From Neisseriaceae bacterium (lineage in GTDB: Bacteria > Pseudomonadota > Gammaproteobacteria > Burkholderiales > Neisseriaceae): 64,000 nucleotides of DNA. The notes beneath the pieces were generated by a model. That model saw only the letters and a list, made by a program, of their open reading frames with translations. It was not told where the DNA came from and searched no databases. Shown in pieces: positions 4,803 to 37,776 of the stretch. Within the stretch, counting starts at the first letter, position 1. Every line of letters starts with the position of its first letter. A program made the translations under genes and the position numbers. The DNA lies in assembly GCA_017934045.1 (NCBI GenBank), contig JAGBKK010000024.1, forward strand, positions 124,001 through 188,000, given 5' to 3'.

Positions 4803-4877
4803 AAAAGCAAACAACAAAAACCTTGCTTTATTGCAAAGCAAAGGTTTTTGTCGCTGATGATTTATGAAATATATAAA

Positions 4878-5240
4878 TTATAAAATTTCAACAATATTGC
4901 GAGCGGCGCGTTTGGCGTCCAAGAAAATTAAGCCTAATTTCGCACCTTCACGAGCAATTACGGTTAGCACGGCATCTGAACCTGCGTGGGTCATCAAAAT
5001 ATAGCCGTTAGAACCTTTTACCATCACTTGCTCTAAATCGCCACGATTTAATTCGCGTGCTGTGCGTTCGCCCAAAGCCAACATTGCAGCAGCCATCGCA
5101 CCTACGCGGTCTTCATCAACATCTTGTGGCAACAAAGCAGCCATTGTTAAACCGTCAGCAGAAATAATGGCTGATGCCTCAATGTCTGCCGATGAACCAT
5201 TCAAATCACTCAAAATGGATTTCAACATTTGCTCACGCAT
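4878..5240 (-). CDS. Roadblock/LC7 domain protein (MglB-like)
   Basis: A 120-residue single-domain Roadblock/LC7 protein and the last gene of the six-gene operon. The typical alternation is visible: an N-terminal helix (MLKSILSDLNGSSADIEAS), the strand pair AIISADGLTMAALL, the central helix (DRVGAMAAAMLALGERTARE), then the strands QVMVKGSNGYILMTHAG and AVLTVIA and the closing helix. Such proteins act as regulators of small Ras-like GTPases, for example MglB acting on MglA, and as conservon components in Streptomyces. The start has a good GGAG ribosome site. A canonical GTPase gene lies two genes upstream, so a GAP or scaffold role is the simplest inference. The family is near certain and the partner is inferred. 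Confidence 0.88.
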   Translation of the reverse strand: MREQMLKSILSDLNGSSADIEASAIISADGLTMAALLPQDVDEDRVGAMAAAMLALGERTARELNRGDLEQVMVKGSNGYILMTHAGSDAVLTVIAREGAKLGLIFLDAKRAARNIVEIL

Positions 5241-5283
5241 AATTCAATCTCCAAAAAAATCAAAGTCCTTAAATTAAAAATCA

Positions 5284-5919
5284 TTAACCATAACGGCGAT
5301 ACAGCACTTGCACCAATTCGACAAAATTGTCGTTTTGTAACTGCGGTGTGCCGCCAATCACCAAAATCAGTTTGTTTTCACCTAAATACATAGGGAAAAA
5401 TGCCAACTCACTGCGTCCAGCGGGATCGCACACTGCCCACGAGTTTTGGTTGATATTCAAGTTGTTTTTAATCAACAGGGCGTGTTGTTCCGATAGACGC
5501 GCCACTTCACCTGCCAAAGCAGCAATTTCTTCGGCTGATTCGTGATGAAAACCTGCACAGGCATAATACAAACCGTTGTCGTCAGCAATCAGAGCTTTGT
5601 TGGTGTCTGACAGTTGTGCCAACAATTCAGGCAGCCTGTTTTCCAAGTTATCCTGTGCAATCACGGTGGGTTTATCTTCACCGTACAAAAATTCCAAGCG
5701 TTGTAAGCGATACAATAAATTGATGGCAGATTCTAAATTATCTGAACCTGACCATTGCAATAAGGATTCTTCGCTTACAGGTTGTGGATCAACGGTTTTT
5801 AAAATACCGTGTAGCAGTGTCCGAGAAGGGTTTTGTTGTGTCCCAGAAATCGCATAATAGGCACCCGCCGCCGTAACTTTGGGATACAACTGTGTTTGTA
5901 ATGAAAGATTAGTTTCCAT
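5284..5919 (-). CDS. Divergent Roadblock-like protein with N-terminal extension
   Basis: A 211-residue protein between the GTPase and the MglB-like gene. Its C-terminal half (from about residue 108: KALIADDNGLYYACAGF, then EEIAALAGEVARLSEQ, then ELAFFPMYLGENKLILVIGG) has the strand-helix-strand pattern of a Roadblock domain, but diverged. The N-terminal 100 residues (SRTLLHGILKTVDPQPVSEESLLQW...AINLLYRLQRLEFLYGE) look like a small helical or winged-helix module. It starts 4 bp after the GTPase stop with an AGAGG ribosome site, so translation is probably coupled. One DUS lies inside (near 5626). The Roadblock call is by pattern only; a structure prediction would decide it. Confidence 0.6.
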   Translation of the reverse strand: METNLSLQTQLYPKVTAAGAYYAISGTQQNPSRTLLHGILKTVDPQPVSEESLLQWSGSDNLESAINLLYRLQRLEFLYGEDKPTVIAQDNLENRLPELLAQLSDTNKALIADDNGLYYACAGFHHESAEEIAALAGEVARLSEQHALLIKNNLNINQNSWAVCDPAGRSELAFFPMYLGENKLILVIGGTPQLQNDNFVELVQVLYRRYG

Positions 5920-5923
5920 ATTT

Positions 5924-6460
5924 TTATACCTCTAATCCTGGGTCAATGGAAAATAATAATGCCACCACTAAATGTTTCACATCATTCGGTTCACGACCAT
6001 CAACCTCAAATACAGGAATGTTGAGTTTTTTATCGGCTAAATAGTGTTGATATACCGCAATCGTGGGCGATGCTTGTATATCCATTTTGGTTACACCGAT
6101 AACGACTGGTGCGTAAGCCAACAAATCTTTAAATGCGTCCAAGAAAAATTCCAAGTCTTTCAAAGGCGTAGGACGGGTGTTGTCCAACATTAACACCAAG
6201 CCCAATGCCCCTGTACTTAAAATTTCCCACATAAAATCAAAGCGTTCTTGACCTGGTGTACCATACAAATGCACTTTGGTTTCTTCGTCCAAGTGAATCA
6301 CGCCATAGTCCATCGCCACGGTGGTGTGGTCTTTGCGTGCTAATGTCATATCGGACGCATGGGCATCGGTTTTAATCGGCGGCTCATCACTAATCGCAGA
6401 AATCGCCGTGGTTTTGCCAACACCAACTGGACCTGTGAAAATAATCTTACTTTCTACCAT
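5924..6460 (-). CDS. Small Ras-like GTPase (COG2229/MglA-like)
   Basis: A 178-residue single-domain GTPase. G1 is GPVGVGKTT (residues 10-18). A Thr pair (46-47) is a candidate switch I. G3 reads YGTPGQERF (66-74), where the usual Asp of DxxGQ is Gly67 but the catalytic Gln71 is kept. G4 is TKMD (124-127). This combination is typical of the COG2229 branch found beside Roadblock proteins, as in Streptomyces conservons, and is related to MglA. No lipid-attachment Cys is seen, so it is a cytosolic switch. The start has an AAGGGA ribosome site. It lies between the receiver protein (25 bp upstream) and the divergent Roadblock gene (4 bp downstream). Confidence 0.87.
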   Translation of the reverse strand: MVESKIIFTGPVGVGKTTAISAISDEPPIKTDAHASDMTLARKDHTTVAMDYGVIHLDEETKVHLYGTPGQERFDFMWEILSTGALGLVLMLDNTRPTPLKDLEFFLDAFKDLLAYAPVVIGVTKMDIQASPTIAVYQHYLADKKLNIPVFEVDGREPNDVKHLVVALLFSIDPGLEV

Positions 6461-6485
6461 AATCAGTTAATCCCTTAATAAACCA

Positions 6486-7658
6486 TTATTCTTTCACTGC
6501 CAAACGGCTCATCAAGCGTTGCAACATACCTGTGTTTTGTGCACGGTATTTTTGTCGCACCACAATGCCGTCTTCTTGCAAACCATTGCCTTGCACTTTT
6601 TCAGCCAACGGCGATGTGGATTTGCCATCAAATTTTTGTGTCATTGCTTGAATCGTCTCTGGATCAGCCGCTAACAAGCCTACCATATAGGTGGCAGCAA
6701 TAAAATCTAATAAATCTTTTAATTCCACACGCAAAATTTTATATAAAATATGCAAATTTGCGGTGGTTTGTGTCATAAAGGCAGACAAGCGCATAGCGTC
6801 TGAAATGTGTGCTAAACGCGTTAAGTTTGGCCAGCCTTTCAAACGCACCAATGTATCAGGTAAAATTTCCGACACCAAACGACCACGGCAAGTCCAAACC
6901 GAAAATTGCCACAGACAAGACTCGAAACTCACTTTGGCATTTTTACGCCAAGTTGGATTATCGGCAATGTATTTAATGCTGATTTGGGCGTTGTCGTTCT
7001 CGCACAGTTTTTTCAAGTCATCGGGCGATACTGCCAATAAGATTTTTTGAATCACGGGGAAAACAATCAGCAATGGTTTGTTTTCATACACCAAAGCAGC
7101 GTCTTTGTTTTGGCTACACACCACACGCAACGCCCCTAATAAACCGTGTTGGGCATTGAATTTGCGAATATTAGCAGTGGGCAGTTGTTCTTTGCGTTGA
7201 AATTTACGCACCACAAACTGATCTTGGTGTTCTACACCTTGTTCTTTTTCTTTGAGTTTGCGTTCCAAGTTCAAACGGTGGCGTTCGGCTTCCGCTTTTT
7301 CGCGTTCAATGCGTTTTTGATCTGGGTTATACAAACCTTCACCACGCAAAGTGGCTTTAATCAAAGGAAACAAAGCTTCGATTTTGACGGGTTTGGGCAG
7401 GTAATGCACGGGGAATTCGGGTTCATTCACCGAAGTATAAATCGCTGGCATTTCAGGATACTGTGCTTTAAAGTCATGCCACGCTTGCACGCCCTCTGCA
7501 CCATCAACATCGACAATCGCCAAAGTGGCTTGATCGCCCTGTTCAATAATGTTGTATTTAACTGCGGCATGCATTTTGAATGCCATGCGAAATACAGCCA
7601 TTTTTTTGTCGTCCATACCGACCAACAAAACATTTTTTGCGACTTGTTGGGATTGCAT
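6486..7658 (-). CDS. Receiver-domain protein with coiled coil and unknown C-terminal domain
   Basis: A 390-residue protein. Residues about 8-105 look like a CheY-type receiver: NVLLVGMDD gives the acidic pair (D16/D17), LAIVDVDG the possible phospho-acceptor (D50), IYTS the Thr/Ser position, and YLPKPV the conserved Lys-Pro. A charged helix (about 112-145, RIEREKAEAERHRLNLERKLKEKEQ) probably forms a coiled coil. The remaining 240 residues are a mixed domain ending in a helical part (LTRLAHISDAMRLSAFMTQTTANLHILYKIL) that I do not recognise. The ATG overlaps the stop of the upstream FimV-like gene (TAATG), so the two are translationally coupled. It may link phosphorelay input to the GTPase, which is inference. 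Confidence 0.65.
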   Translation of the reverse strand: MQSQQVAKNVLLVGMDDKKMAVFRMAFKMHAAVKYNIIEQGDQATLAIVDVDGAEGVQAWHDFKAQYPEMPAIYTSVNEPEFPVHYLPKPVKIEALFPLIKATLRGEGLYNPDQKRIEREKAEAERHRLNLERKLKEKEQGVEHQDQFVVRKFQRKEQLPTANIRKFNAQHGLLGALRVVCSQNKDAALVYENKPLLIVFPVIQKILLAVSPDDLKKLCENDNAQISIKYIADNPTWRKNAKVSFESCLWQFSVWTCRGRLVSEILPDTLVRLKGWPNLTRLAHISDAMRLSAFMTQTTANLHILYKILRVELKDLLDFIAATYMVGLLAADPETIQAMTQKFDGKSTSPLAEKVQGNGLQEDGIVVRQKYRAQNTGMLQRLMSRLAVKE

Positions 7659-9196
7659 TATTTCACCCGCCCTTCATTCATTCGTTGCGTTAAGTTACTC
7701 AAAGCCACGACCACATCTTCTGGTAAATCCACATTGTCGGAACGCACTTTAATGGAAAAGTCTTCAAAGCGTTTCCAGTTTTCGGAGCGTTCGTATAAGT
7801 CTAACAACAATGTATAAAGTTGTGCTTCTTGACGGTGTGCAAACACGCCGTCTTCCAAAATTTTGATAGCACCATCAATTTCACCATATTCTAATAAAGA
7901 ATCGGCTTCCTGAATAATAGCTTCAATTTCGTTGGTGGCTTGACGCATTTCTTGTTTGCGATCTTCTACCACCAAAGCTTGCATACGCGATTTCACCGCA
8001 CTGGCACTTTCGCCCACATAGCCATATTTAACGCCTAATTCTTTAATGGCTACTTCATTTTGTGCGTCTTCTAACTCATCAAACAGTGGGTGTTGTCCCA
8101 AAGATGAACCCCAACCCAACATTTTTTCTTTCACCAAACGACCGTAACGACCCAATACGGAATACAGATTCCATAAATGTTCGGCATAGTTGTTGATATT
8201 TTGATTGTTGTAATCAGAATTGAGTGCGTCAATCGCAATCGATGCAGGGCGTTTGGCATCAGAAATGGCTTTGTTATACAGATTAACTGATGAAACATAG
8301 TCAATTTCTTTACCCAAAAGCCGTGCCGCTTTTTCGCGTGATGAGAATGCGATAACAGTTTCGCGTTCATCAGGGGTAATATTGGATACGCCACTGAAAC
8401 CTTTGACCAACTGTTTGCCTGCTTCCAATTTGGCAAAGTAAGACTCGCGTCCTGCACTTTGACGGGTTTTTTGGGTTTGGGCAAATTCTTCTAAATCGTC
8501 TGTTTTAGCGACCTTGTCGGCGACTTGTTGTGCAGGTTCAACAATACGATCTTCTTTAACAATGGTGCGTGCAATTAAATCAGGATCCCAGCCCAAGCGT
8601 TCTTCGGCAAAGACACGCAAGTCCAAGTTATTGGGTTCTAATTCAAACGCCATTTTGGTTACTTCTTCTAATTCAGGGCGTTCAAATGTGTCTTCGTAAT
8701 CACGCAGGGCTTGTACAAATGTATCAACATCGCCGATTTCCAAGTACATACCACACAGTTCAAACACCAATTCTTTGGGTTTTTCTTCCAAAAGAGAAAG
8801 GTAACCATTCAGGGATTTAGCGGCTTTGTCATAATAGCCGAATTGTTTATACACTTTGTATTCGGTTAAGTCATCAACTTCGGCTTCGGACACGGTAGAG
8901 ACTTCCGCACCGCCGAATGCGTCATCGCCCAATTCAAAGGTTTTGGCAATTTGTACATCATCAAAACCGTCATCAAGCGTCGGCGAAGCAGGTGCAACCG
9001 CATCAGCAGCTGTGGGTGGTGGTGGCATATCCAAGCCGTCTGCCACTTTATCACGCAATGCTGATGCTGGTGCTGACTCATAGTCGGTTGAACTTCTGCG
9101 TTCAGGTTGTTCAGGTTGGTGGGTCATTTTCTTAAATGCAAAGAAAACACCAACCAAAACAACCAGTAACGCAACAAGAGCAATTACAAATATCAT
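7658..9196 (-). CDS. FimV-like TPR membrane protein
   Basis: A 512-residue protein with one N-terminal membrane helix (residues 2-22), an acidic and proline-rich linker (about 30-80), and then TPR-like helical repeats. A first repeat block, EYKVYKQFGYYDKAAKSLNGYL, resembles the cytoplasmic repeats of FimV/TspA proteins. More helical pairs follow, including a C-terminal TPR (about 440-490). No LysM domain or large periplasmic part is seen, so this is a shortened FimV-like protein facing the cytoplasm. FimV/HubP proteins are polar hubs for type IV pilus and chemosensory proteins. It follows the di-iron protein gene by 70 bp with a strong AAGGGG site. The FimV relation rests on architecture and should be checked by HMM search. 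Confidence 0.6.
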   Translation of the reverse strand: MIFVIALVALLVVLVGVFFAFKKMTHQPEQPERRSSTDYESAPASALRDKVADGLDMPPPPTAADAVAPASPTLDDGFDDVQIAKTFELGDDAFGGAEVSTVSEAEVDDLTEYKVYKQFGYYDKAAKSLNGYLSLLEEKPKELVFELCGMYLEIGDVDTFVQALRDYEDTFERPELEEVTKMAFELEPNNLDLRVFAEERLGWDPDLIARTIVKEDRIVEPAQQVADKVAKTDDLEEFAQTQKTRQSAGRESYFAKLEAGKQLVKGFSGVSNITPDERETVIAFSSREKAARLLGKEIDYVSSVNLYNKAISDAKRPASIAIDALNSDYNNQNINNYAEHLWNLYSVLGRYGRLVKEKMLGWGSSLGQHPLFDELEDAQNEVAIKELGVKYGYVGESASAVKSRMQALVVEDRKQEMRQATNEIEAIIQEADSLLEYGEIDGAIKILEDGVFAHRQEAQLYTLLLDLYERSENWKRFEDFSIKVRSDNVDLPEDVVVALSNLTQRMNEGRVK

Positions 9197-9266
9197 CTAA
9201 AATCCCCTTCAAAATGGGTTTAACCCATTTGAACTATTCAATGTATTCGCTGGAAAGTCGTCTATT

Positions 9267-10010
9267 TTACAGAATATCCAAGCCACATTGTAAATTTTCA
9301 AACCAATTTAAGAATTTTTCTACCATTGGTTTGCCTTTGAAAGACGCACCGTGTTGCGGCACAATCCATTCAATATCCAACTGTCGCACGGCATTCACCC
9401 AAATACGGCAGGCTTTGTTGCCTGACATATAGTGTTGATGAAAGCCTTGCCCACTGCCTCGCGTGAGAAATTCATCAAAGTCTTCCCACACGCCCCCTGC
9501 TTCTTCACCTGACACCAAAGACGCACCAATATCGCCCGAAAATAAAATTTTACTAATCGGATCATATACTTGGAAATTGCCTATGGTGTGTAAATAATGG
9601 GCTGGCACGATTTTGAGTGTCATGCCGCCCAAGTCAATATCCATACCCTCAAACGGAATGGGGGTCATTCTACCCACAGTTGCTCCTTTTAGGCAAAAGT
9701 GGGGAATAAAGCGTTCCCATTCAGAGGCGACCAAAATTTTTGCGTCTGTAATCAGCAACCAACCATTCACAGACGCCACAATGTCTGGGTCTTGGTGTGA
9801 GGCGAAAACATATTTTAAATGTGATGGCAGAAAAAAGTCTGCCATTTCTGCCAAAAGGTGTTTGTAAGTTAAATTGCCACCTGGGTCTAATAACATACCC
9901 TCGCCCGCATGTGAAATAGCGAACTGGTTGGCTTGCACGCCCTCGCCCTGCACTAACTCCGTGAAAGCAATACATTTGTGATTGCCGTCATCATACAGTA
10001 CTGTTGCCAT
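9267..10010 (-). CDS. ODP-like di-iron metallo-beta-lactamase-fold protein
   Basis: A 247-residue metallo-beta-lactamase-fold protein and the first gene of the operon. The metal ligands follow the flavodiiron/ODP pattern and not the hydrolase HxHxDH: SHQDPD gives H-x-D-x-D, followed by AHYLHT, the bridging Asp in LFSGDIGAS and the last His in VPQHGASF. Oxygen-binding di-iron proteins (ODP) of this form bind O2 reversibly and occur beside chemotaxis genes, for example in Treponema. There is no flavodoxin domain, so no stand-alone NO or O2 reductase is expected. Its place ahead of the FimV-like, receiver and GTPase genes suggests an oxygen or redox input. The family is well supported and the sensing role is inferred. 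Confidence 0.75.
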   Translation of the reverse strand: MATVLYDDGNHKCIAFTELVQGEGVQANQFAISHAGEGMLLDPGGNLTYKHLLAEMADFFLPSHLKYVFASHQDPDIVASVNGWLLITDAKILVASEWERFIPHFCLKGATVGRMTPIPFEGMDIDLGGMTLKIVPAHYLHTIGNFQVYDPISKILFSGDIGASLVSGEEAGGVWEDFDEFLTRGSGQGFHQHYMSGNKACRIWVNAVRQLDIEWIVPQHGASFKGKPMVEKFLNWFENLQCGLDIL

Positions 10011-17933: not shown

Positions 17934-18695
17934 TTATTCTTCGCGTGGCACATCTGCATGGCTGTTGCTGCCTGCAATCAATTTATTTAATTCCAAAGGA
18001 TTGGTTAAGCGAACATGTTTGTGATTGACATCAATCCAGCCTGATTGTTGAAATTTAGAGAATGTGCGGCTGACAGTTTCTAATTTTAAGCCCAAATAAC
18101 TGCCAATTTCTTCACGCGACATTCTTAAAATAAATTCATTAGACGCAAAACCCCTTGCTCGTAAGCGTTGCGATAAGTTCATTAAAAAAGCAGCTAATCG
18201 TTCTTCGGATTTCATATTGCCTAACAGCAACATTACATTTTGGTCTCTCACGATTTCGCTACTCATCAAGCGGATAAAATGGCGTTGGAGTGATGGAATT
18301 TCGCCATACAATTCTTCCAAACGGTCAAAAGGCAGTTCGCATACTTCGCTGTCTTCCAAAGCGACTGCGTTGCACGAATGCACATTGCTACACAAGCCGT
18401 CCATACCGATGAGTTCGCCTGACATAAAAAAGCCAGTAACCTGGTCTCGACCGTCAAAACTGGCAATATTGGTTTTGAAAAAACCTGTGCGTACGGCAAA
18501 CAAAGAAGTAAATTCTTCGCCCACACGGAACAAATATTCGCCCTTTTTAATGTGGCGACTTTGACGAATCACCGTGTTCAGTTGGTCAAACTCGTCTGGG
18601 TTTAAGCCCACAGGCAAACACAGTTCTCGCAAAGAACAGTTGGAACACAGGATTTTTAATACTTGTGGTTTATCGCAATGATGACAATCTAACAT
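17934..18695 (-). CDS. fnr: FNR-type oxygen-responsive transcription regulator
   Basis: A 253-residue CRP/FNR-family regulator. The four cluster cysteines are present: three in ILCSNCSLRELC near the N-terminus and one in SCNAVAL. A cyclic-nucleotide-binding-like beta roll, a long dimer helix and a C-terminal helix-turn-helix follow (SREEIGSYLGLKLETVSRTFSKFQ). The E..S R pattern (LETVSR) is that of FNR, which reads TTGAT/ATCAA-like half sites. In its apo form the [4Fe-4S] cluster is lost and the protein is inactive in oxygen. It is divergent from hemN, whose promoter carries a matching palindrome. Confidence 0.93.
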   Translation of the reverse strand: MLDCHHCDKPQVLKILCSNCSLRELCLPVGLNPDEFDQLNTVIRQSRHIKKGEYLFRVGEEFTSLFAVRTGFFKTNIASFDGRDQVTGFFMSGELIGMDGLCSNVHSCNAVALEDSEVCELPFDRLEELYGEIPSLQRHFIRLMSSEIVRDQNVMLLLGNMKSEERLAAFLMNLSQRLRARGFASNEFILRMSREEIGSYLGLKLETVSRTFSKFQQSGWIDVNHKHVRLTNPLELNKLIAGSNSHADVPREE

Positions 18696-18920: not shown

Positions 18921-20321
18921 ATGAATATGCAGAATTTTCAAACCATTGACTTCGACCGTGCGTTAATAGAACGACTACCGTCCAACGGTCCGCGATACAC
19001 TTCGTATCCGACCGCCGACCGCTTCACCACTGATTTTGGCGAGCAGAATTACACACACGCCTTGCAACAACGCGTGTCAGGGGCGTTGAATCGTCCGCTG
19101 TCCTTGTATGTGCATATTCCCTTTTGCAATGTGATTTGCTTTTACTGCGGTTGCAATAAAATTGCCACCAAAGACAAATCGCAAGCCGATATTTATATCA
19201 ATTACCTTGATAAAGAAACGCAATTACTCAAACCGCATTTACAAGGCATTCATCGTTTGGAACAACTGCATTTTGGCGGTGGCACGCCCACTTTTTTGTC
19301 GGACGAACAATTAGCACGCGTGTTTGACATTATCGGCAACACTTTTGAATTGGTGGATAACGGCGAATATTCGATTGAAATCGACCCACGCAAAGTGTCC
19401 GCTGACAATGTGCGTCATTTGGCGAAATTAGGTTTTAACCGTATGAGCGTGGGCGTGCAAGACTTTGACCACAAAGTTCAGGTTGCCGTTAATCGTGTGC
19501 AGAGCGAAGAAGAAACCGCATTAGTCGTCAATACCGCACGCGAAGCAGGGTTTAAATCGATTAGCATTGATTTAATCTACGGTTTGCCACACCAAAGTGT
19601 TGAAACAATGAAAACCACCATCGACAAAGTTTTAACACAATTAGACCCTGATCGCATATCGCTGTATCACTATGCCCACTTGCCGCATTTATTCAAACCG
19701 CAACGCCGCATTGACACCAACGCCGTGCCCAGTTCGCAAGAAAAATTAGACATACTGCAATACGCCGTGCAACGCCTAACGGACGCAGGTTATATCTTTA
19801 TTGGTATGGATCACTTTGCCAAACCGCAGGACGAACTCTCCATTGCCCTGCGACAAGGGCGTTTGCAACGCAATTTTCAAGGCTATTCCACGCATGCCGA
19901 TTGCGACTTAATCGGCTTGGGCATTTCCAGCATAGGCAAAGTCGGCAATATTTACAGCCAAAACGCCAAAACCACCGAAGAATATTACGCCGCTTTGGAC
20001 AACGGACATTTGCCCGTTATTCGTGGTTATACACTCAATAAAGACGACCTACTTCGCCGCAATATTATTCAAGATTTAATGTGCCGCTTTGCCCTATCGT
20101 TCTTGCCCTACGAGCAACAATATGGCTTAAAATTTGAACAATACTTCGCCACTGAATTAGCCGAAATGCAACAACTGCAACAAGACGGCTTGGTCGAAAT
20201 CGAACCCAAATTCATCTGGGTAACCGACAAAGGGCGTTTTTTAATCCGCAACATTGCGATGGTGTTCGATTACCATTTACGCCACAAAAAAACCACCGCG
20301 GTTTATTCAAAAACGGTGTAA
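18921..20321 (+). CDS. hemN: Oxygen-independent coproporphyrinogen III oxidase
   Basis: A radical-SAM enzyme that decarboxylates coproporphyrinogen III to protoporphyrinogen IX without oxygen. It has 466 residues, as usual for true HemN. The [4Fe-4S] motif is CNVICFYCGC (CxxxCxxCxC), with the HemN N-terminus GPRYTSYPTADRF, the SAM-region HFGGGTPTFL and the later IGLGISSIG. MNMQ offers two starts two codons apart; the first ATG is used and neither has a clear ribosome site. The FNR box upstream, with the fnr gene divergent, indicates anaerobic induction. A DUS pair follows the stop. Confidence 0.95.
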   Translation: MNMQNFQTIDFDRALIERLPSNGPRYTSYPTADRFTTDFGEQNYTHALQQRVSGALNRPLSLYVHIPFCNVICFYCGCNKIATKDKSQADIYINYLDKETQLLKPHLQGIHRLEQLHFGGGTPTFLSDEQLARVFDIIGNTFELVDNGEYSIEIDPRKVSADNVRHLAKLGFNRMSVGVQDFDHKVQVAVNRVQSEEETALVVNTAREAGFKSISIDLIYGLPHQSVETMKTTIDKVLTQLDPDRISLYHYAHLPHLFKPQRRIDTNAVPSSQEKLDILQYAVQRLTDAGYIFIGMDHFAKPQDELSIALRQGRLQRNFQGYSTHADCDLIGLGISSIGKVGNIYSQNAKTTEEYYAALDNGHLPVIRGYTLNKDDLLRRNIIQDLMCRFALSFLPYEQQYGLKFEQYFATELAEMQQLQQDGLVEIEPKFIWVTDKGRFLIRNIAMVFDYHLRHKKTTAVYSKTV

Positions 20322-34160: not shown

Positions 34161-35192
34161 ATGAAAATGCGGAAACTCTGCATATCGCTCTGCGTGGCGT
34201 TGGGGTTAGTTGCGTGTAGCAGCGATTTGGAACAAGATGTCTCCAAAATCCCTGCTGCACAATTAGGTGCCGTTGTAAGTAGCATCGACACTAACCCATA
34301 CTTTCAAAGTATGTACAAATCATTTCAAGACACTGCCGCCGAAAATTCACAGTTGAATTTGCAATTAGAAGCGTCCAAGGACGACCAAGAATTGCAAAAC
34401 AACCAAATCGAAGCCATGATCAACAGCGGTGCCAAAGCCTTGGTGATTAACTTGGCAGACACCAAAGTCGGACCAGAATTAGCAATGAAAATGTGCGACC
34501 GCCGTATTCCTGTGGTTTATATCAACCGCACACCAGGCAATAAAACATTACAAGAATGTGATATTGCCTATTTTGTTGGTTCAGACGACTATCAAGCAGG
34601 CATTTTACAAGCCCAATTAGCCTTGGAAAACTGGACAGAACACCCCGAATGGGACAAAAACGGTGATGGTAAAATGCAACTTGCTATTTTGGAAGGCAAT
34701 CCTGCCATTCATTCCGCAAGAATTCGTGCCAATTGGGCAATTTCTTCGTTGAAATTCAATCCTGAAAACGGATTAGGTTCAGAAGGCATTGACATTGTTC
34801 TCCAAGAAACAGGTCGATACAGTTTGGATGTTGCCAAAGAAGTCGTGGGCAAATGGATCAATTCGCCTGATTTCAACAAAGTGGAAGTCATTTTAGCAGG
34901 CAACGACAACATGGCTTTGGGTGCGGCTGAAATATTAGAAGCTAACAACAAAAAAGTACCCATTTTTGGTATTGACGGCTTACCCAAAACCCAAGATGCC
35001 ATCAAGCACGGTCGTGTTTTTGCCACCATTTTGAATGACGCAGATACACAAGCACGCGTAGCATTGCGTATGGCTGCCAATTTGGCAAATGAACGCCCTG
35101 TTACAGAAGGCGTATTCTTGGATATGGACGAAAGTGGTACAGTTTCTGTGCCATTACGCCGTTTAGACGATCAACCTGCTCAATCAAATTAA
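34161..35192 (+). CDS. Galactose-binding-protein-like lipoprotein
   Basis: A 343-residue periplasmic-binding-protein I fold lipoprotein; the lipobox LGLVACSS puts the Cys near residue 20. It resembles E. coli galactose/glucose-binding protein throughout: the calcium loop DKNGDGKMQ, YFVGSDDYQAGI, AGNDNMALGA, FGIDGLPK and TILNDADTQA. Several sugar ligands are kept (N and D in GNDN, D in GIDG, N in LND). Others differ: the aromatic at the TAMWD position is Arg-Tyr here, and the HPDAEAR block reads IHSARIR, so the ligand may not be galactose. No ABC permease is adjacent. The next gene, 14 bp away, is a membrane kinase, so it is probably a sensor subunit. The 264-bp gap before it is very AT-rich, with no recognised site. 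Confidence 0.82.
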   Translation: MKMRKLCISLCVALGLVACSSDLEQDVSKIPAAQLGAVVSSIDTNPYFQSMYKSFQDTAAENSQLNLQLEASKDDQELQNNQIEAMINSGAKALVINLADTKVGPELAMKMCDRRIPVVYINRTPGNKTLQECDIAYFVGSDDYQAGILQAQLALENWTEHPEWDKNGDGKMQLAILEGNPAIHSARIRANWAISSLKFNPENGLGSEGIDIVLQETGRYSLDVAKEVVGKWINSPDFNKVEVILAGNDNMALGAAEILEANNKKVPIFGIDGLPKTQDAIKHGRVFATILNDADTQARVALRMAANLANERPVTEGVFLDMDESGTVSVPLRRLDDQPAQSN

Positions 35193-35206
35193 AGAAAGGA
35201 TCAATC

Positions 35207-37369
35207 ATGGCTGACAAAAATAAATATACCAGCGAAGAGAGCCTATTTTCCAAATATGGCATGTTGATTCTCTCCATCGCAGGTTTCTTATTGCTGATTG
35301 TGATTTTGTCCTTGGCAACCTATTACTACACCAACAAAATTACCCAAGAAACACAAAAAGTGGCGTTGGTGGGTGAGCAAGGTGAGATTACACAGGAAAT
35401 TGCACGGATTGCGTTCTCGCAAGAATCTTACTTAACCAACGAAGTGTTCCGCCGTTATCAAAAAGACGGTAAATTGGTCAATCGTATTCCTTTGGAAGAG
35501 TTTCCACAAAATACACTCTTCCGCCGTACAGAAATGAAACGCTTGGCAGACCGTTATAACGAAATTCTGTTGCGTTTGGAACACGGTGGTGAAATTGCCG
35601 ACCGCCATGGCAATATTATTACCATTAGCCCTGTACAATTAGCAACAACGCGTGCTAACTTGGAAGCAACCAAACAAATGTGGGATTACTACTATCCACT
35701 GATGACAGAATTCGAGTTGGAAGCCGAAACGGGTTACTTAACTCGCGACTATGCCACTTATGTGATGGAATATACGCGTCAATACAACCGCACACTGCAA
35801 CGCGATACTTCTCGGGTATCATCACTCATTCAAGCGTATGTTGATCGCTTGCAAAAAGAACTCTTTTGGATTCAAACGGCTGGTGTGGTTTTGGCATTAG
35901 CATTGTTCTTCTTGATGATTTTCGGTACTATTCGCCGCTTGATTGAAGGCGACCGCAGATTGGGTATTGCACGCCGCGAAACCGAAGAAATCTTGGAAAC
36001 CATTAACGAAGGTTTGTTCTTGGTGGATAGAGACTTGAACATCGGTCATCAATATTCTGCCCACTTGGAGAACATTATTGGTCAAAAAGAAATCGGTGGT
36101 AAAAAACTCAACGAAGTCTTGTCCAAATTGGTGGATAAAGAAACCATGGAAGTTACCGAAACCTTTATCGAACAGTTGTATTCCGACTGGGTGGTAGAAG
36201 ACCTGATTGACGACTTAAACCCACTGCATCGCATTCGTGTGGAAGTTGATGACTTTTCAGGTTACTACGAAACGCGTTATTTAGACTTTAACTTCTCACG
36301 CGTGTATGAAGGTGAAGCGATTGATAAAGTGTTGTGTTCCGTGTCCGATATTACCAATGCGGTGGTCTTGGAAGAAAAATTGGCAGCCGAACGCGAACAA
36401 AACGACCGCCAAATCGAAATGTTGGGTACCATTTTGGCTGCCGAACCTACGATGTTGGATAACTTTATCAAAACCACTAAACGCCGCATTAACGATATTA
36501 ACTCGGCATTGCGTCGTCCAGAGCGTGGTCAAGCGGCTTTGCAAGAAAAAGCTAAACTCATTTTCCGCGAAGCCCACAGTATGAAAGGTGAAGCATCTGC
36601 CTTGAAATTGGCATCATTTGTTTCTCAATGCGAAAGCTTTGAAAACAAAATTAAAGAGTTGCAATCCAATCCACGCTTGACAGGTAACGACTTCTTGGGC
36701 TTAACCGTGATGTTGGACGAAATTATGTCGTTAAGTGATGTGGTGGCGAATTTGAACGATCGCATTACTGGTGGTCGCACAAGTTCAGGTGGCACCGTTG
36801 CAGCACCGTCTAATGTGATGAAAAAATACTTTAACTCCTTTGCCGCAGACATTGCCGAACGCAATGGCAAAAAAGTGGCTTTGGATTGTCAAGGTATGGA
36901 CGATGGTATGCTTTCAGGCAGCCTACAAGACACCATCAAAGACATTGCCGTACAAATGTTGCGTAATGCCATTGTTCATGGTATTGAAGATCCACTCGAT
37001 CGCAAACGCGATGGCAAACCAGAAGCAGGCAATGTACAACTATTGCTGACTCGCCGTCCAGGTAATATGGCAGAGTTATTGGTGGAAGATGACGGTTCAG
37101 GCATTCACTTTGATAAAATTCGTCAAAGATTGGTAGAAAAAGGCACTTGCACCGAAGATGAAGCTCGTGAAATGCAAAAACGCGAACTCATTATGCACCT
37201 GTTTGATTCAGGTTTATCCACAGCCGAAGAAGGCAACCAAGACGCAGGTCGTGGTGTGGGTATGGATATTGTTCGCGAACGCATTGCCGAAATCAAAGGC
37301 AAACTGAAAATTGCTTCTGAAGAAGGTCAATACACTCGTTTCACCGTAACTTTCCCTTTGGGCGTATAA
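35207..37369 (+). CDS. Membrane-bound CheA-like histidine kinase (HPt + HATPase, no CheW domain recognised)
   Basis: 720 residues. A membrane helix (about 17-39), a periplasmic helical domain of about 180 residues, a second helix (about 219-241), a PAS-like domain (about 250-390), a coiled coil, then an HPt domain with the phospho-acceptor His457 in FREAHSMKGEASALKL. The CheA-type ATPase follows: LRNAIVHGIEDPLDR (N box, near 585), DDGSGI (near 627) and GRGVGMDIVRERI (near 680). The protein ends right there: the P5/CheW-like regulatory domain of CheA is missing, and so are receptors and CheW. It thus looks like a self-contained receptor-kinase working with the binding lipoprotein upstream and the CheY-like regulator downstream. 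One DUS lies in the gene (near 36913). Confidence 0.82.
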   Translation: MADKNKYTSEESLFSKYGMLILSIAGFLLLIVILSLATYYYTNKITQETQKVALVGEQGEITQEIARIAFSQESYLTNEVFRRYQKDGKLVNRIPLEEFPQNTLFRRTEMKRLADRYNEILLRLEHGGEIADRHGNIITISPVQLATTRANLEATKQMWDYYYPLMTEFELEAETGYLTRDYATYVMEYTRQYNRTLQRDTSRVSSLIQAYVDRLQKELFWIQTAGVVLALALFFLMIFGTIRRLIEGDRRLGIARRETEEILETINEGLFLVDRDLNIGHQYSAHLENIIGQKEIGGKKLNEVLSKLVDKETMEVTETFIEQLYSDWVVEDLIDDLNPLHRIRVEVDDFSGYYETRYLDFNFSRVYEGEAIDKVLCSVSDITNAVVLEEKLAAEREQNDRQIEMLGTILAAEPTMLDNFIKTTKRRINDINSALRRPERGQAALQEKAKLIFREAHSMKGEASALKLASFVSQCESFENKIKELQSNPRLTGNDFLGLTVMLDEIMSLSDVVANLNDRITGGRTSSGGTVAAPSNVMKKYFNSFAADIAERNGKKVALDCQGMDDGMLSGSLQDTIKDIAVQMLRNAIVHGIEDPLDRKRDGKPEAGNVQLLLTRRPGNMAELLVEDDGSGIHFDKIRQRLVEKGTCTEDEAREMQKRELIMHLFDSGLSTAEEGNQDAGRGVGMDIVRERIAEIKGKLKIASEEGQYTRFTVTFPLGV

Positions 37370-37386
37370 AATAGGAGAACGCATAA

Positions 37387-37776
37387 ATGCATAAGTTAAT
37401 GATTGTCGATGACTCGAACATCATTCGCAAACGAATCGAACGCAGTTTTGACAGCAATCAATTTGAATTGGTCGCCGTTGCCTGCGATGGTGCAGAAGCT
37501 ATTGCTAAATGCAAAGAGTTCAGTCCCGATGTCGTTACAATGGATTTGACCATGCCCAATATTGACGGCTTGGAATGTATCCGCAATTTGGTAGGCATTA
37601 AACCAACCATCAATATTTTGGTGGTGTCTGCTTTGTCCGACAAAGCCACAGGTTTATTGGCAATTAAATACGGTGCAAGGGGTTTTATCTGCAAACCCTT
37701 TACCGATGAGCAGTTAATCGAAGGCTTAAACAAAATGATTCGTTTTGATTTAGCCAAACGAAATGGTAAAAAATAA
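37387..37776 (+). CDS. CheY-like response regulator
   Basis: A 129-residue single receiver domain with no output domain. Acidic pair D8/D9 (IVDDSN), phospho-acceptor D53 (VTMDLTMPNIDG), S81 (VVSALSD) and K103 (FICKPF). It starts 17 bp after the kinase stop with AGGAG. It is probably phosphorylated from His457 of the kinase and acts by protein contact, possibly on motility, pili or the polarity operon at 4.9-10 kb. The target is inferred. Confidence 0.92.
   Translation: MHKLMIVDDSNIIRKRIERSFDSNQFELVAVACDGAEAIAKCKEFSPDVVTMDLTMPNIDGLECIRNLVGIKPTINILVVSALSDKATGLLAIKYGARGFICKPFTDEQLIEGLNKMIRFDLAKRNGKK

Follow-up and report, generated by a model that had tools for sequence, protein, structure and literature searches.

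Architecture and conservation of the locus

We analysed a 64,000-nucleotide stretch of a Neisseriaceae bacterium (contig JAGBKK010000024.1; hereafter the window), whose closest genomes in our genome scan are Neisseriaceae metagenome-assembled genomes from ruminant stomachs. Six genes, all on the minus strand, occupy positions 10010 to 4878 and are transcribed in the order ODP, HUB, REC, GTPase, RobB and RobA (Table 1). They encode a protein of the oxygen-binding di-iron family, a TPR protein, a receiver-domain protein, a Ras-like GTPase and two Roadblock proteins, and we lean, by a small measure, towards reading the locus as a GTPase switch that is tuned by oxygen or redox sensors and acts on type IV pili. 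The successive intergenic spacings are 70 bp, a 1-bp overlap, 25, 4 and 43 bp, and rlmD lies on the same strand 74 bp upstream of ODP. A first-pass annotation, made from the sequence alone, had described six co-directed open reading frames (ORFs) with this span and these gaps, all of which agree with the ORF coordinates. Its overall interpretation, an oxygen- or redox-tuned polarity switch that includes a FimV-like protein and is new to the family, is supported in part, as to the tuning and the pilus output, whereas the FimV identity and the novelty of the core did not stand.

Table 1. Features of the six-gene locus (window coordinates; aa, amino acids).
Feature	Position	Strand	Description
ODP	9267-10010	-	247 aa; oxygen-binding di-iron protein family; proposed O2/Fe sensor
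HUB	7658-9196	-	512 aa; transmembrane helix 2-25, disordered linker, cytoplasmic TPR solenoid; proposed membrane-tethered effector/scaffold
REC	6486-7658	-	390 aa; receiver domain 5-107, variable linker, conserved C-terminal domain ~165-345
GTPase	5924-6460	-	178 aa; MglA family, Group 3 type
RobB	5284-5919	-	211 aa; N-terminal domain of unknown fold and C-terminal Roadblock domain; MglB-like partner
RobA	4878-5240	-	120 aa; single Roadblock domain; MglB homologue; best-conserved protein of the set
Terminator-like hairpin and T run	4821-4843	-	consensus scan only; would end the transcript after RobA

The genome scan found 509 GTPase relatives, from which 80 loci were kept; together with loci from two class-wide samples, the survey comprised 126 RobB-bearing loci. 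The order HUB-REC-GTPase-RobB-RobA forms the core of most of them, in beta- and gammaproteobacteria and in Acidithiobacillus, so the arrangement is far beyond chance. Fifty-three loci consist of the core with nothing else recognised, 22 have ODP in front, 18 have a PAS-PhnD pair behind, and the others show other combinations; ODP and HUB are adjacent in 27.

The core is a Group 3 MglA system

The GTPase matches the Pfam families Ras, Roc and ATP_bind_1, and solved MglA and Rab structures match its profile in a comparison with Protein Data Bank (PDB) entries. Across 24 sequences, the G1 (GPxGxGKT), G3 (GTPGQ, lacking the canonical Asp) and G5 (DxR) motifs are conserved. Within the G3 segment LYGTPGQ, residues G67, P69, G70 and Q71 are invariant and T68 is nearly so; D154 and R156 of G5 are likewise invariant. 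RobA matches Robl_LC7 in Pfam (E 3.8e-19) and, by profile, the conservon protein CvnB5 (3leq, 3e-16). The Robl_LC7 match of the window copy of RobB is weak and under the cut-off (7e-4); 26 of 30 orthologues match the family (best 1.5e-5), and the RobB profile matches CvnB5 (3leq) at 0.0017. These matches agree with the Ras-like GTPase and Roadblock assignments made at first pass. Compared directly, the RobB and RobA profiles gave a probability of just 9%, though both match Roadblock. The N-terminal domain of RobB showed no profile match to the C-terminus of REC, and the idea that one duplicates the other was rejected.

RobA is 85–92% identical across betaproteobacteria outside the Neisseria/Snodgrassella clade; RobA of that clade is ~62% identical to other betaproteobacterial RobA, with no such shift in the GTPase. 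The shift is real, and we dropped it as a sign of ODP-RobA contact because it concerns a single clade and because Acidithiobacillus also has no ODP at the locus yet shows no shift.

Group 3 MglA was defined computationally in beta- and gammaproteobacteria, including Neisseria. Its hallmarks are a D-x-R motif in G5, one or two coupled MglB proteins and an adjacent protein whose N-terminus is receiver-like and whose C-terminus is conserved (Wuichet & Sogaard-Andersen, 2014; PMC4316618). The locus displays an MglA-type G3 motif without the Asp, the D-x-R motif, coupled RobB and RobA and a receiver-type neighbour of this kind, and it is nearly certain that REC, the GTPase and the two Roadblock proteins constitute a Group 3 MglA system. 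HUB and the ODP, PAS, protoglobin, CZB, FIST and PhnD-like genes described below go unmentioned in the accessible part of the 2014 paper.

The core has also been studied in Snodgrassella, a member of the same family, whose mgl operon likewise contains one mglA with two coupled mglB; an orphan mglB lies ~1 Mb away (Meng et al, 2024; PMC11112851). An allele of this orphan gene, mglB-3, alters motile flares on soft agar as well as colonisation, and the authors note that, by transposon sequencing data, all three mglB genes are beneficial in the gut (PMC11112851). The first-pass statement that no such system had been described in Neisseriaceae is therefore wrong for the REC, GTPase and Roadblock core, which was known from both papers; HUB membership, the sensor slots and the co-loss with PilT are unreported in the literature searched.

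Elsewhere, the window's own genome has a further set (L159 5732-7854, G000 contig C36) that comprises another GTPase (46% identical), a Roadblock gene of its own and a protein of 377 aa. The 377-aa protein resembles the REC C-terminal domain and has no receiver. In the sister genome G062, this second set adjoins the main operon (L164).

HUB and REC

HUB gives weak TPR matches in Pfam (TPR_14 in 24 and TPR_19 in 23 of 26 members), and its AlphaFold2 model shows a transmembrane helix joined by a disordered linker to helical repeats, with TPR proteins as the best fold matches. In gammaproteobacteria the protein is short and soluble and matches only profile positions ~250–465; in betaproteobacteria and Acidithiobacillus it adds a transmembrane anchor and a second repeat block. 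Its gene stands almost always ahead of the receiver gene in the loci compared. HUB and RobB form one ORF in one family (L134: HUB 48–233, RobB 266–471), and this fusion argues for physical contact between the two proteins.

The first-pass annotation had taken HUB for a FimV-like hub. Both FimV/HubP and, as predicted from its model, HUB are membrane-anchored proteins with cytoplasmic TPR-type repeats. However, HUB carries neither FimV_core (TIGR03505) nor the FimV C-terminal signature and does not align to the separate FimV that the genome encodes elsewhere, and the assignment was rejected. Our literature search found nothing joining Roadblock proteins with FimV or with Acinetobacter.

Neither the window copy of REC nor its 30 orthologues matched any Pfam domain, DNA-binding domains included, and its assignment to PATAN or another named Pfam domain was likewise discarded. 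The receiver domain reported at first pass is borne out by an AlphaFold2 model (30 orthologues, pLDDT 86), in which residues 5–107 adopt a receiver fold that aligns with the PmrA receiver (VIA-align Z 12.3, 98 residues, 1.9 Å). Residues D16, D50, D52, K89 and P90 are at least 90% conserved among the 30 orthologues. Beyond a variable linker, W250, G259-R260 and W276-P-N-x-T-R281 are invariant, and the C-terminal segment 288–344 is helical in the model.

This C-terminal domain bears on the main rival to a pilus switch, namely that the output is transcription. REC would then be a response regulator whose C-terminal part is a winged-helix DNA-binding domain; the GTPase and Roadblock module would tune it, and the sensors would make gene expression depend on oxygen or redox state. 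The authors of the 2014 study proposed such an output from a winged helix-turn-helix predicted by Phyre2 in the C-terminal region (PMC4316618). We rank transcription first among the alternatives because our structure comparison resolves the fold of the REC receiver alone; the strong conservation of the C-terminal domain, with its invariant WPN-TR motif and helical segment, speaks for it. We nevertheless consider it unlikely. The 30 orthologues carry no Pfam DNA-binding domain, and among the structure matches listed, all filled by receiver folds, residues 5–107 alone are covered. A transcriptional output also leaves the TPR protein, the HUB-RobB fusion and the co-loss with PilT unexplained.

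Candidate oxygen and redox sensor genes

ODP matches PF19583 (E 8.5e-68; 228.5 bits against a curated cut-off of 27.2). The solved oxygen-binding di-iron proteins 6qrq/6qwo (6e-73) and 6qnm/6r9n (7e-67) match its profile and have the motifs HQDPD, HxxH, GD and QHG in common with it. We assign ODP to this family and propose that it senses O2 or iron. Campylobacter CheO was considered as an ODP relative and dropped, since it is said to have no known sensory domain (PMC9665402). An ODP gene stands ahead of HUB in the genus of the window, in Chromobacteriaceae, Gallionellaceae and Hydrogenophilus, and in one gammaproteobacterial family; ODP is absent from the Neisseriaceae genomes scanned outside the window's genus. 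In several loci (L042 5765-6193, Acidithiobacillus equivalents, L135 and L147), a conserved gene of ~143 aa without a Pfam match replaces ODP ahead of HUB.

Other sensor slots were found by clustering every ORF of the neighbourhoods with no particular family in mind, and the families were then confirmed with Pfam. Behind RobA, clustering yielded a PAS protein that stands alone, followed by a PhnD-type binding protein (Phosphonate-bd) of the cytosol; it also yielded protoglobins (PF11563, E 1e-20 to 1e-24) next to RobB and RobA or between the two. The best PDB match of the locus PAS profile is the PAS domain of the Aer aerotaxis receptor (8dik, 3e-47), and by Pfam CZB and FIST each occupy this same slot in single loci. 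One gammaproteobacterial locus (L180) arranges ODP-HUB-REC-GTPase-RobB-RobA-PAS-PhnD around a single core. Twenty further loci, L180 among them and most from genomes outside those that built the PAS and protoglobin profiles, included five with PAS, two with protoglobin, one with ODP as well as PAS, one with CZB and one with FIST. The sensor genes are interchangeable: ODP, protoglobin, Aer-type PAS and CZB recur at the locus in different lineages, and the proposal of oxygen or redox tuning is better supported than when it was first made. Methylacidiphilum HGbRL, a natural globin-Roadblock fusion, likewise links a haem O2 binder directly to a Roadblock domain, although it involves another globin class, another phylum and a fusion instead of an operon (PMC4476040).

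Base rates were taken from 232 class genomes, 25 RobB-positive and 207 RobB-negative, using Fisher tests uncorrected for phylogeny. With profiles built from locus members, locus-type PAS occurs in 11/25 RobB-positive against 0/207 RobB-negative genomes (p 2e-12) and locus-type protoglobin in 9/25 against 0/207 (p 4e-10; eight of the nine beside RobB). ODP is found in 15/25 against 30/207 (p 2e-6). The eleven best PAS matches (E ≤1e-73) are all stand-alone and all come from RobB-positive genomes, ten of them no more than 2 kb from RobB. The eleventh comes from the window's own genome, in which an Aer-type PAS and PhnD-like pair lies off the operon (L190 8469-9778, G000 contig C19). There, the pair adjoins obg-like and other unrelated genes.

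An alternative is that the core is a pilus or polarity switch and that ODP is an enzyme handling O2 or NO, linked to the core by nothing more than a common transcript. This would fit the 30 of 207 genomes that have ODP without the system, and the retention of the core with no ODP at the locus in Neisseria, Snodgrassella and Acidithiobacillus. We judge it rather less probable still than a transcriptional output, since in other lineages the cluster houses unrelated O2/redox sensor families, and genomes with the system have ODP four times as often as those without. A further precedent for a sensor is the Treponema ODP, which in 2019 work by Muok et al (cited in PMC9665402) is said to be a chemotaxis O2 sensor. 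Judged from gene context, an oxygen or redox input to the switch is likely.

In Neisseriaceae outside the window's genus, including Neisseria, Snodgrassella and relatives, the PAS and PhnD-like genes adjoin an orphan RobA (L160-L163, L193). In a complete genome, ~1 Mb separates this orphan RobA from the core, and we infer from position that it corresponds to mglB-3 of the Snodgrassella paper. The accessible part of that paper contains no HUB or sensor link (PMC11112851), whereas in the Snodgrassella-like genomes analysed here PAS and PhnD-like genes flank or adjoin the orphan RobA (L161). Most Neisseria genomes without the orphan RobA also lack the PAS gene.

Association with type IV pili

Among 83 Neisseriaceae genomes, RobA is intact in 69, missing in 13 and split in one. 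A PilT-grade gene, defined as a match with E ≤1e-146, is present in all 69 genomes with intact RobA against one of the 13 without it (Fisher 1.6e-13, phylogeny uncorrected), and the genome with the split gene also has no such match. The association spans at least three genera with nearly no exception. In locus L148, pilB (T2SSE and MshEN domains) lies 240 bp downstream on the same strand. In Myxococcus, MglA-GTP acts on pili via the TPR protein SgmX (PMC7519303). The pilus output suggested at first pass gains support from the PilT-grade co-loss, from the published effect of the Snodgrassella mglB-3 allele on motile flares (PMC11112851) and from pilB beside L148, and we regard type IV pili as the fairly probable target of the switch.

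Control of a non-pilus target, such as cell-envelope growth or division-site placement, with the PilT co-loss part of a general host-adaptation gene loss, could draw on the few clades that the co-loss covers and on the one RobA-less genome that retains PilT, but is improbable given the almost exceptionless association in at least three genera and the published Snodgrassella mglB-3 phenotype, which is pilus-type motility (PMC11112851).

Proposed mechanism and related systems

In the sensor-tuned pilus switch that we favour, the GTPase would cycle between its GDP and GTP states. The RobA/RobB pair may act as its GTPase-activating protein (GAP) or co-regulator, by analogy with MglB/MglC, and REC would tie the GTPase to a phosphorelay, as RomR does. 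HUB, membrane-tethered and probably touching RobB, is a candidate effector or scaffold that would relay the GTP state to the type IV pilus machinery in the manner of SgmX. Co-transcribed cytosolic sensors would set the switch via a Roadblock/HUB/REC complex, the sensor depending on lineage: ODP (O2/Fe) here, and Aer-type PAS (FAD/redox), protoglobin (haem/O2) or CZB elsewhere. Pilus activity and movement over surfaces would in this way be controlled by oxygen or energy state, with no chemoreceptor array involved. We infer these biochemical steps, together with the sensor contacts, the sign of control, localisation and any polarity, from the gene set. The wider idea that Group 3 MglA is a modular aerotaxis or energy-taxis route for pilus movement, bypassing chemoreceptor arrays, in which the Roadblock GAP complex is under the direct control of ODP, protoglobin, Aer-type PAS or CZB as interchangeable sensors, is less likely than not.

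Several points weigh against a sensor-tuned pilus switch. In many loci, including those of Acidithiobacillus, the Neisseria cores and several gammaproteobacterial families, the cluster lacks a recognised sensor; neither PhnD-like nor FIST proteins sense oxygen, and ODP may be an enzyme. Because the PAS and protoglobin profiles came from locus members, the base-rate tests are biased towards copies of the locus type, and the Fisher statistics ignore phylogeny. The co-loss reflects few independent losses, PilT was the only pilus gene counted, and G009 is the lone RobA-less genome that keeps it. At class level, the enrichment of PilT-family genes is not significant (25/25 RobB-positive genomes against 184/207 others, p 0.06), because PilT is near universal.

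A functional parallel is the Group 1 system of Myxococcus xanthus (MglA/MglB/MglC, RomR and SgmX), which similarly combines a Ras-like GTPase, two Roadblock proteins, a receiver protein and a TPR effector that targets type IV pili. Its MglA belongs to another group and its genes are scattered, whereas those described here are clustered, and no O2 sensors have been reported in Myxococcus. HUB is membrane-anchored in betaproteobacteria whereas SgmX is cytoplasmic; the likeness is one of putative role. Streptomyces conservons (Group 2) also combine a GTPase and Roadblock operon with sensor input, and, as noted, the RobA and RobB profiles match CvnB5. The present locus has receiver and TPR proteins in place of CvnA and CvnC, and neither a CvnA histidine kinase nor a CvnC (DUF742) domain was found among the matches of the six proteins.

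Group 3 MglA occurs in many beta- and gammaproteobacteria, including Neisseria and Xanthomonas, and is a known yet uncharacterised family. The recurrent O2/redox sensor genes and the HUB-RobB fusion raise direct questions about the input to the GTPase and about how a TPR protein relays to pili; if the proposed mechanism is true, it would be a Ras-like route to oxygen-guided surface motility. The Aer-type redox sensor gene beside the orphan mglB in Snodgrassella-like genomes may offer a reason for the role of that orphan in colonisation of the bee gut.

Other features of the window

On the plus strand, positions 34161-37776 encode a periplasmic binding protein (Peripla_BP_4), a kinase of the membrane that carries Hpt and HATPase_c domains, and a CheY-like receiver that stands alone; together the three genes resemble a compact chemosensory relay. 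As a matter of speculation, this CheA-like kinase cassette could give phosphate to REC. A CRP/FNR-type regulator (17937-18695, minus strand) adjoins a HemN-like gene (18921-20321), which suggests oxygen-responsive regulation in the source organism. Over the whole window, ATGCCGTCTGAA has no copy, and the 12-mers AGGCAGCCTGAA and AGGCTGCCTGAA occur in 57 and 69 copies, respectively, counted on both strands and partly overlapping each other; we take both to resemble Neisseriaceae DNA-uptake sequences.

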